This document shows, piece by piece, positions 43,953-46,190 of a DNA stretch of 53,958 nt. The notes below the pieces were generated by a model. It had not been told where the DNA came from. It saw only the letters and a program-made list of their open reading frames with translations, and searched no databases. The stretch is from an uncultured Burkholderiales bacterium (lineage in GTDB: Bacteria; Pseudomonadota; Gammaproteobacteria; Burkholderiales; Burkholderiaceae_C). The stretch spans positions 1 through 53,958 of the forward strand of contig CAIVLE010000151.1 of NCBI GenBank assembly GCA_903906635.1. The letters run 5' to 3'. How positions within the stretch are numbered: the stretch's first letter is position 1; the number at the start of each line of letters is the position of its first letter. The translations under genes were made by a program, and so were the position numbers.

Positions 43953-44819
43953 TCAGCCCTCGCCCCGTGGTGACTTGTCGCGGGCATAACTCCACAGGTA
44001 TTGACCAGGGGCCTCGCGCACCAAAACTTCAACCCCTCGGTTGACGGCAGCGGCTGCCAACTCGGGCGAACACGTCGCGTCCATCAACTCAGGGGCATGC
44101 AAAGGCCGCATGTGCATGCAAAAGCCTTGGCCTGGTGCCAAGCGCTCGCACCAAGTCAAGATCACGGTTGCGCCAGTTTGTTGGGCCAACTTGCCCAGCA
44201 GCGTCATCGTGTAGACATCTCGACCAAAAAATGGCGCCCACACGCCTTGCCCCAAGGGCGGCACTTGATCGGGCAAGATCGCGGTGTAGCCTCCTGAACG
44301 CAAGGTGCGAATCAAGGTGCGAACGCCCGCCAAGGAAGTGGGGGCGGAGGCCAAATAAGGACGCGTGCGCGCTTGCGCCACCAAGGGCTCAAGCCACGCT
44401 TTGCGGGCGGGTCGGTACAGCGCCACCAAGGAGCCGAATCGGGGCCCGAATTTTTCGGCAATCGCTTGCGCACCAATTTCCCAGCAGCCCAAATGGGGGG
44501 ACATCACAATGGCGCCCTTGCCTGCCAGCATGGCGGCTTCAAAGTGCTCAGCACCTTCCCAACGCACCACATCTGCCAAGGGTTGGGCGCTAGAACGCAT
44601 CCACACCCACGGCAGTTCAGCCACCATCATGCCCATGGCGGCAATGGCGCCGCGGGCCTCGCGCCAAGTCAGCCCAGCAGCGTGCACATTGGTGTTGAAG
44701 TGGTGCCGATAACGCGGCGACACAGCCCAGACCAACCAACCCAGCACGGCGCCTGCGCGTTGCATCCATGGCAGCGGTACACGCGATAAGCACTGGAACA
44801 AACGGGTGACAGGGGCCAT
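43953..44819 (-). CDS. Lipid A biosynthesis acyltransferase family protein (HX4E)
   Basis: Second LpxL/LpxM-family protein, also 288 residues, with motif H109-LGCW-E114 (Glu in place of Asp, also seen in the family) and ILPDQVPPLGQGVWAPFFGRD. ATG at 44819 is used; the open frame extends to 44981 through the metK leader on the other strand and is not coding there. It is transcribed away from metK and its promoter must share the 41 bases up to the metK transcription start. Confidence 0.9.
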   Translation of the reverse strand: MAPVTRLFQCLSRVPLPWMQRAGAVLGWLVWAVSPRYRHHFNTNVHAAGLTWREARGAIAAMGMMVAELPWVWMRSSAQPLADVVRWEGAEHFEAAMLAGKGAIVMSPHLGCWEIGAQAIAEKFGPRFGSLVALYRPARKAWLEPLVAQARTRPYLASAPTSLAGVRTLIRTLRSGGYTAILPDQVPPLGQGVWAPFFGRDVYTMTLLGKLAQQTGATVILTWCERLAPGQGFCMHMRPLHAPELMDATCSPELAAAAVNRGVEVLVREAPGQYLWSYARDKSPRGEG

Positions 44820-44847
44820 GAGGCTGATTGAAACGATAAAAGTTGAA

Positions 44848-44853
44848 TACAAT
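44848..44853 (+). promoter_or_regulatory. Predicted metK promoter -10 box
   Basis: TACAAT with a -35 region that is poor (TTGAAA at 44828-44833 is only 14 bases away). Transcription from this box would begin near 44860, exactly where the first riboswitch stem starts, which supports the assignment. Confidence 0.5.
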
Positions 44854-44860
44854 GTGGATT

Positions 44861-44945
44861 GTCGCTGAGTTAACAGAGCAACTTGCAGAGCGACAACCCC
44901 ACCCAGGTGGGTCCCGGATCGGTCAAGGCCGAACCATCTGCTAAA
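44861..44945 (+). promoter_or_regulatory. Candidate SAM-II-type riboswitch with enlarged loop, metK leader
   Basis: The RNA can form an H-type pseudoknot. P1: GTCGCT (44861-44866) with AGCGAC (44889-44894), six perfect pairs. P2: TTGCAG (44883-44888) with CTGCTAA (44938-44944), with one U bulged. The first loop reads GCTGAGTTAAC and the 3' strand GCTAAA, both close to conserved SAM-II segments as I remember them. Between P1 and P2 the usual short loop is replaced by two hairpins: CCCAC/GTGGG (44898-44911) and TCGGT/GCCGA (44919-44932). The gene downstream makes SAM, so negative feedback is the obvious role. I could not run a covariance-model search. Confidence 0.65.
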
Positions 44946-44956
44946 GCGTTCGCCGG

Positions 44957-45005
44957 GCTCCTTCGGGGTTGGCAACGCCAACCATCAACCTTAGGAGCTT
45001 TTTTC
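44957..45005 (+). promoter_or_regulatory. metK expression platform: anti-Shine-Dalgarno and alternative hairpins
   Basis: The ribosome-binding site AGGAGC (44993-44998), 7 bases before the ATG, is perfectly complementary to GCTCCT at 44957-44962. Between them lies a 7-base perfect hairpin, GGTTGGC/GCCAACC (44967-44983). The anti-Shine-Dalgarno bases can instead form a small stem closed by a UUCG tetraloop (44960-44967). The two folds exclude each other, as expected for a translational switch. Confidence 0.6.
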
Positions 45006-46190
45006 ATGTCTCTCGACTATCTGTTCACTTCCGAATCTGTCTCAGAAGGCCACCCCGACAAAGTGGCGGACCAAATTTCTGACGCTATTTTGGACGCCAT
45101 CTTCGCTCAAGACCCACGCTCACGCGTGGCCGCCGAGACCCTGACCAACACCGGTCTGGTCGTGTTGGCTGGCGAAATCACCACCCAAGCCAACGTGGAC
45201 TACATCCAAGTTGCGCGCGACACCATCAAGCGCATTGGCTACGACAACACCGACTACGGCATCGATTACAAGGGCTGCGCTGTCATGGTCTGCTATGACA
45301 AACAGTCCAACGACATCGCCCAAGGCGTGGACCATGCCAGTGACGACCACCTCAACACCGGTGCCGGTGACCAAGGCCTGATGTTTGGGTATGCGTGCAG
45401 CGAAACTCCTGAGCTGATGCCTGCCCCCATCCACTACGCCCACCGCTTGGTCGAGCGTCAAGCCCAGTTGCGCAAAGACGGCCGCCTGCCTTTCTTGCGC
45501 CCCGATGCGAAAAGCCAAGTGACCATGCGCTATGTGGATGGCAAGCCCCACAGCATTGACACCGTGGTGCTGTCAACCCAACACAGCCCCGACCAAAGCG
45601 AGTCGGCGACCAAGATGAAGGCCAGCTTCACCGAAGCGATCATCGAAGAAATCATCAAACCCGTGCTGCCCAAAGAGTGGCTGCAAGACACCAAGTACCT
45701 GATCAATCCCACGGGTCGTTTTGTCATTGGCGGCCCACAAGGCGACTGTGGCCTGACTGGGCGCAAGATCATTGTGGACACCTACGGTGGCGCTTGTCCC
45801 CACGGCGGCGGCGCCTTCTCAGGCAAAGATCCCTCCAAGGTCGACCGCTCTGCAGCCTACGCTGCACGCTATGTGGCCAAGAACATCGTGGCTTCGGGTT
45901 TGGCCAGCAAGTGCCAAATTCAAGTGGCGTATGCGATTGGCGTGGCCCGTCCGATGAACATCACGGTCAACACCGAAGGCACGGGCGTGATCAGCGACGA
46001 GAAGATCGCCGCCTTGGTGGCCGAGCACTTTGACCTGCGCCCCAAGGGCATCATTCAAATGCTCGACTTGCTGCGCCCCATCTACAGCAAGACCGCAGCC
46101 TATGGCCACTTCGGTCGCGAAGAGCCCGAGTTCACCTGGGAGCGCACCGACAAGGCGGCTGCACTGAAGGCCGCAGCTGGCTTGAAGTAA
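45006..46190 (+). CDS. metK: S-adenosylmethionine synthase
   Basis: Makes SAM from methionine and ATP; cytosolic tetramer with Mg and K. 394 residues starting [23 protein letters not shown] (two segments, methionine and ATP His in EGHPDKVAD). Signature hexapeptide region [12 protein letters not shown] and the glycine-rich [19 protein letters not shown] are present. Probably controlled by the leader RNA at 44861-45005, and ended by a strong terminator. Confidence 0.98.

Follow-up and report, generated by a model that had tools for sequence, protein, structure and literature searches.

A putative SAM-II-like riboswitch in the metK leader of a Burkholderiales bacterium, predicted to act as a translational off switch

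The metK gene of an uncultured Burkholderiales bacterium, studied here within a contig stretch of 53,958 nucleotides (the window), is preceded by an H-type pseudoknot at positions 44859–44945. Our reading of this leader, to which we give a probability of about 0.83 on the basis of sequence comparison, is that the metK mRNA begins with a SAM-II-like riboswitch that works as an off switch of translation. Comparison of related leaders supports the pseudoknot, an extra helix (P2a), an anti-Shine–Dalgarno helix, the complementarity between two further leader elements (elements 1 and 3) and the residues of the ligand pocket.

RESULTS

The metK gene (45006–46190, plus strand) encodes SAM synthetase, as indicated by three Pfam S-AdoMet_synt domains. 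The intergenic stretch 44820–45005 has metK on one side and a divergent gene on the other, the latter on the minus strand with a likely start at 44819 and tentatively labelled acyltransferase-like. According to a preliminary description, metK of this betaproteobacterium is preceded by a SAM-II-type aptamer whose long loop contains additional hairpins, and comparative data back this. The perfect P1 given there (44861–44866/44889–44894) is present base for base and proved to be two pairs longer, its full extent being 44859–44866/44889–44896 (8 bp). P2, in which TTGCAG (44883–44888) pairs with CTGC-T-AA (44938–44944), the first loop, starting GAGTTAAC, and GCTAAA at 44940–44945 all lie where they had been described. 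The third loop, estimated at about 43 bases with two hairpins, runs from 44895 to 44937, exactly 43 bases, and both hairpins were found. All features are listed in Table 1.

Table 1. Predicted features of the metK leader and the metK gene in the window (window positions)
Feature	Position	Strand	Remarks
-10-like box TACAAT	44848..44853	+	Transcript then starts near first base of P1
P1 5' strand TTGTCGCT	44859..44866	+	8 bp with 44889–44896; both-side changes in 4/6 counted pairs among relatives
L1 third strand GAGTTAA	44867..44873	+	G44869 at SAM-II U10 place; T44870, T44871 at U11, U12
P2a 5' strand GAGC	44876..44879	+	Partner 44948–44951; one pair A-U to G-C in 13/32 relatives
P2 5' strand TTGCAG	44883..44888	+	All cells paired; both-side changes at two pairs
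P1 3' strand AGCGACAA	44889..44896	+	8 bp with 44859–44866
L3 hairpin A, optional insertion	44898..44911	+	5 bp; both-side changes in 2/5 pairs, 19 near relatives
L3 hairpin B, optional insertion	44916..44935	+	7 bp; fold of insert; alignment too poor for pair count
P2 3' strand and pocket CTGCTAAA	44938..44945	+	T44942 = U44, A44945 = A47 of SAM-II
Element 1 GCGTTCGCC	44946..44954	+	Holds P2a 3' strand (44948–44951); can pair with element 3
Element 2, anti-Shine–Dalgarno GGGCTCCT	44955..44962	+	Pairs with 44993–45000 in predicted minimum fold; covaries, 94 leaders
Element 3 GGCAACGC	44971..44978	+	8 pairs with element 1
Element 4, Shine–Dalgarno AGGAGCTT	44993..45000	+	Partner of element 2
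metK, SAM synthetase	45006..46190	+	Three Pfam S-AdoMet_synt domains

MetK was used to gather 80 named loci and to search 61 genomes (58 with MetK), from which 30 metK loci were kept, including the window's own locus (L088); the named and unnamed loci overlap in part. A readable upstream stretch was available at 110 metK loci, and 97 of these, L088 included, match the core pattern, representing 82 distinct cores; some of the 13 misses are due to a contig end or to the 220-base cut being too short, and one mis-parsed row (L094) enters the counts as a mismatch. As the core pattern itself imposes part of the core, conservation is quoted below from model-aligned rows, which are themselves model-fitted.

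A covariance model (R1), trained on 32 relatives with the window left out, gave a single match in the window (44859–44955, E 1e-8) and none other up to E 10, its next-best match across the window's whole genome having E 0.97. Of the 80 named metK loci it matched 74, each with an E-value of at most 2.3e-5, and of the 48 outside the training set it matched 42; the matched named loci include those of Curvibacter, Variovorax, Acidovorax, Polaromonas, Cupriavidus, Ralstonia, Massilia, Undibacterium, Burkholderia, Bordetella, Polynucleobacter and Dechloromonas. No R1 match was obtained at six named loci (L039, L051, L058, L081, L085 and L087), two of which are labelled Gallionella. R1 matches were present in 310 of 399 Burkholderiales genomes (E 0.05; any downstream gene) and in 173 of 369 genomes of the class (E 0.01), counts that include SAM-II-like copies before other genes, the gene having been read for part of them only.

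Covariation was scored over P1, P2 and P2a together in the alignment of 32 short-loop metK leaders, all from the named set, on which R1 was built. Pairs form in 96.7 % of cells, and double changes occur in 58 cells, where shuffles average 19.7 and none of 500 is as high; when partners were slid, 0–8 double-change cells were seen and 35.7–44.1 % of cells were paired. Within P2, 11 rows have G-C in place of A-U at one pair, and eight have A-U in place of G-C at another. The number of pair types, one of five measures applied to these 32 relatives, was not above shuffles (199/500), and in near relatives alone the double-change cells exceeded shuffles (0/500) and the count of pairs with double changes did not (250/500). 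The covariation in P1 and P2 that had been proposed as a check is thus found in the 32 aligned leaders, and across these sequences the extra helix P2a covaries too.

The third loop varies from 3 to 93 bases across leaders and is only 3–6 bases long in 32 of 97, so that a long loop is no hallmark of the group. The insert of the window folds better than its own shuffles (P 0.010), as do 57 of the 65 L3 inserts of at least 18 bases (P<0.05), and at least two hairpins are predicted in 38 of these 65. Of the covariation suggested for both hairpins, that in hairpin A was borne out, at two of five pairs; hairpin B is not alignable for a pair count. The two L3 hairpins are therefore real but optional. 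These observations bear on a reading in which there is no RNA switch, and what is conserved upstream of metK is an operator, a promoter or a region coding for a leader peptide. Such a region would explain strong sequence conservation beside a promoter-like box, but compensatory pairs in the pseudoknot, on which a leader peptide or operator was rejected, together with this variation in one loop and residue-by-residue agreement with a known aptamer, leave it extremely improbable.

An Rfam match, whose absence had been named beforehand as grounds for refutation, was not obtained for the window itself: within 44500–45200 none of the models for SAM-II, SAM-V, SAM/SAH or SAH (RF01057) matched up to E 10, a result on which SAM-V, SAM/SAH and SAH were rejected as the identity of the element. 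RF00521 (SAM-II, SAM_alpha) matched neither the window nor its locus, and at 4 of 20 loci scanned it gave sub-threshold matches at the metK leader (L016, 19.9 bits; L018, 19.6; L025, 22.1; L024, 20.0), with no other SAM_alpha match in those 20 loci; relatives of the window thus reach 19.6–22.1 bits, the cut-off being 36 bits. The L016 alignment covers the whole model and agrees with it strand by strand at 19.9 bits. We used motif order and the RF00521 alignment to transfer SAM-II residue numbering.

The pocket residues listed for SAM-II are U11, U12, U20, U21, G22, C23, G42, C43, U44, A45, A46 and A47 (PMC3764141), and the window retains every one. In the columns with letters among 52 non-training model-aligned matches, U11, U12, U20, U21, G22, C23, G42 and A47 have no exceptions, and among non-training rows with letters C43 and U44 are each kept in 32 of 34, A45 in 31 of 32 and A46 in 32 of 33. 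The only fully conserved listed pocket residue that is altered is U10, described as completely conserved in SAM-II (PMC3764141), which is G in the window and in 39 of the 41 non-training model-aligned rows with a letter there. An apparent departure at pocket position 19 was dropped, as the RF00521 consensus itself has C. For SAM-II, a homopurine pair, either A-A or G-G, has been described within L1 (PMC2258182); at what, judging from sequence, are probably the same positions, the window has A-A, and A-A or G-G occurs in 172 of 177 distinct aptamers (five P1 pairs required) or in 204 of 211 when a P2 filter is applied.

The element shares with SAM-II (RF00521) the P1 and P2 H-type pseudoknot, the L1 third strand GAnUU, the UUGC and GCUAAA strands, the pocket residues, the homopurine pair and a predicted transcript start near P1. 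It differs in having G for U10, a short P2a (GAC/GUC or GAAC/GUUC), the long hairpin-bearing L3 of the window, a predicted translational platform, a sub-threshold score and metK downstream. The earlier proposal of a long-loop SAM-II member or a relative of the same fold is supported, whereas the missed RF00521 cut-off and the G at position 10 mean that it is not a formal RF00521 member. With SAM-V (SAM-II with long loops) it shares pocket, fold, a third-loop hairpin (two in the window, optional among relatives) and, on our model, translational control (PMC6061858); SAM-V differs in having U at the G10 place and is known from marine alpha-proteobacteria and Bacteroidetes, and its Rfam model, as stated, did not match. 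SAM/SAH (RF01727) is likewise a small pseudoknot upstream of metK (PMC2864571), but as described is confined to Rhodobacterales.

The loci found with R1 yielded 177 distinct aptamers, of which 95 have the G-G pair, 77 have A-A and five have neither, proportions that are no census because the loci were picked by R1 score (120 of 140 drawn-up sites were retrieved). A T-run lies within 70 bases after 79 of the 95 G-G versus 17 of the 77 A-A aptamers, and G10 is present in 50 of the 77 A-A versus 4 of the 95 G-G aptamers; the window is of the A-A, G10 type with no terminator-like site. Of 100 Burkholderiales genomes, 17 have an RF00521 match above the cut-off and 46 have one with an E-value no higher than 0.01. 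The best 30 of 69 listed matches had U10 in all 30 and the G-G pair in 29, the next gene being metX in 13, metZ-like in 11, another gene in six and metK in none, so that, of the two subtypes, the Rfam model detects in this sample that of metX/metZ and overlooks that of metK. These classical metX/metZ copies have the same fold and pocket, and occur in the same order of bacteria, as the metK variant, but differ in U10 and the G-G pair in those best 30 of 69 and, for G-G copies, in mostly being followed by a T-run. Classical SAM-II copies were seen at metX and metZ leaders among loci L343–L372 and L194–L220, some over the Rfam cut-off. A SAM-II-like pattern was present upstream of metX in 11 of 30 searched metX loci, with one further (L203) by eye; the stretch upstream of metX in the window's genome (L205, C80:7984–9060) lacks it.

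Tandem SAM-II-like aptamers were seen at 13 loci (L135, L136, L140, L142, L148, L283, L288, L290, L295, L298, L314, L320 and L323), the first being mostly of the U10/G-G, terminator type and the second A-A with U10 or G10; these are possibly two-level switches of transcription plus translation. That G10 would be a signature of metK itself is made less likely by tandems preceding other genes, whose second aptamer can also carry G10, and by some gammaproteobacterial metK leaders with U or A at this position. Five of ten rows classed as 'MetK, T' (L165, L182, L186, L187 and L190) start oddly and are probably false pattern starts.

The downstream genes at other SAM-II-like copies are varied. A family of small proteins (95–114 aa, starting MYDC or MFDC) lies directly 3' of one or two SAM-II-like aptamers at 17 fetched Burkholderiales loci (L288:306–602, L290, L295, L297, L302, L310, L312, L313, L314, L316, L317, L318, L320, L322, L323, L324 and L328), followed at several by a MATE-transporter-like ORF; an alignment of 16 members gave no Pfam match at E 0.1 and one stray NCBIfam match (E 0.062). 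SAM-II-like leaders also precede ORFs resembling, by eye, MoxR-type AAA ATPases (L140, L141, L285 and L191), HD-domain RelA/SpoT-like proteins (L224 and L307), MetE (L246 and L270) and MetH (L353 and L370), as well as MetF-like ORFs (L149 and L234), identified by tblastn with a locus ORF that was itself named by eye.

What the G at position 10 means for the ligand can be approached through SAM-V, in which the corresponding base is the donor of a single hydrogen bond to the uridine paired with the adenine of SAM (PMC6061858). As guanine also has donors, G10 need not mean loss of SAM binding, and by analogy it may still give a hydrogen bond to U44. An unlikely alternative is that the fold is SAM-II-like and still controls metK, but that the G10 pocket reads another ligand, or SAM and SAH alike. 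The near-constancy of G10, the contact of the matching SAM-V base with the adenine-reading uridine and two over-cut-off SAH riboswitches in the window's genome (C232:1237–1330 and C261:9712–9791; L001 and L002), by which SAH sensing exists there, would fit this. Yet both sulfonium-facing uridines, U11 and U21, are kept, position 10 varies in SAM-II-like copies before other genes and is U or A in some gammaproteobacterial metK leaders, and the metK product makes SAM. We infer that the ligand is SAM, a judgement made from sequence. As a separate observation, seven relatives (L046, L055, L066, L072, L075, L080 and L083) have one SAH riboswitch 3' of metK, in the same orientation.

In the window, the hairpin predicted for the ligand-free RNA lengthens P1 through pairing of GAGTT with AACTT, with G10–C19 in the middle. 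Folding predictions give such a hairpin as the minimum fold for 48 of 113 G10/A-A aptamers (and not for the other 65), for 2 of 26 U10/A-A and for 1 of 89 U10/G-G aptamers. With P1 extended in this way, the third strand would be buried together with part of P2, which offers a lead to what G10 may do.

At the 5' edge, 83 of 88 distinct leaders carry a box with at least five of six matches to TATAAT immediately 5' of P1, compared with 17.1 expected from shuffles, an arrangement also described for SAM-II (PMC1273637); a two-hexamer promoter scan of the window gave no promoter at the -10-like box. Downstream of the aptamer, the anti-Shine–Dalgarno duplex of 94 distinct leaders has a mean energy of -14.85 with its own partner and -11.61 (SD 0.26) with swapped partners, the best of 2000 swaps reaching -12.66, and the own partner has a median rank of 0.23 among all partners. 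Examples are L074, with CAGACTCCA opposite TGGAGTCTG, and L016, with CGCAGG and CTC opposite GAG and CCTGCG. For the element 1/3 duplex the corresponding means are -13.11 (own), -11.69 (swapped; best of 2000, -12.16) and -8.23 (shuffled), and shuffles are beaten at P<0.05 in only 52 and at P<0.1 in 71 of the 94 leaders; in both sets of statistics the leaders are counted equally, ignoring kinship. For the platform of the window alone, the predicted Shine–Dalgarno-masked fold has -22.6 and the forced element 1/3 form, with the Shine–Dalgarno sequence open, -17.1, in predictions that cannot display the pseudoknot.

Most known SAM-II switches are transcriptional (PMC6061858), and the T-runs that follow most G-G aptamers accord with this; SAM might be bound here with control falling on transcription, for example by Rho or pausing, and the anti-Shine–Dalgarno helix merely following. 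Such a course is very unlikely for metK, as the stretch 44780–45040 holds no terminator-like site, on which a terminator in the leader was rejected, T-runs are infrequent after A-A aptamers, and the covariation involves the Shine–Dalgarno region.

DISCUSSION

The direction of switching is one that we infer from the order and overlap of the elements, the competing helix reusing the 3' edge of the aptamer, which leads to the off-switch model. When SAM is plentiful, the ligand would bind the P2 triplex pocket and lock P2 and P2a; element 1 would thereby be held, leaving element 2 to pair with the Shine–Dalgarno sequence so that metK translation stops. When SAM is scarce, P2 would open and element 1 would pair with element 3, which is transcribed ahead of the Shine–Dalgarno sequence; the stem so formed would catch element 2 inside it, and the free ribosome site would allow translation. 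The L3 hairpins would be a peripheral insertion. With ample SAM in the cell, the metK leader switch thus probably stops more of it from being made.

A wider reading, which we offer as speculative and consider rather doubtful, is that SAM-II comprises two subtypes with matched platforms, that G10 is not neutral and that the aptamer has been retuned for a SAM-making enzyme. One subtype would be U10/G-G, transcriptional and associated with metX and metZ; the other, A-A and mostly G10, would be translational and the main, so far unrecognized, metK regulator in Burkholderiales. In the ligand-free state, G10–C19 pairing within the extended P1 hairpin would make both the third strand and the P2 strand inaccessible, and the aptamer would thereby have two states, its affinity or SAM/SAH discrimination being retuned.

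SAM-II in beta-proteobacteria as such is already known: a Bordetella example was shown by Corbino (2005; PMC1273637), and Barrick & Breaker (2007) reported beta-proteobacterial SAM-II with terminators, in a text that makes no mention of metK (PMC2258182). A literature search of open-licence papers did not find a metK SAM-II subtype. Leyn et al. (2014) sought metK regulation in beta-proteobacteria without success (PMC4239095). As Burkholderiales metX/metZ leaders carry classical SAM-II, the 'novel metXZ RNA element' of the same report is probably classical SAM-II.

For most of the metK loci examined, the motif described here would be a direct and testable answer to the gap left by Leyn et al. 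(PMC4239095). One subtype of SAM-II is detected by RF00521 and another is overlooked, and the metK variant is a natural test of a pocket base that has been called invariant. The comparison also ties the subtype of an aptamer to the type of its expression platform.
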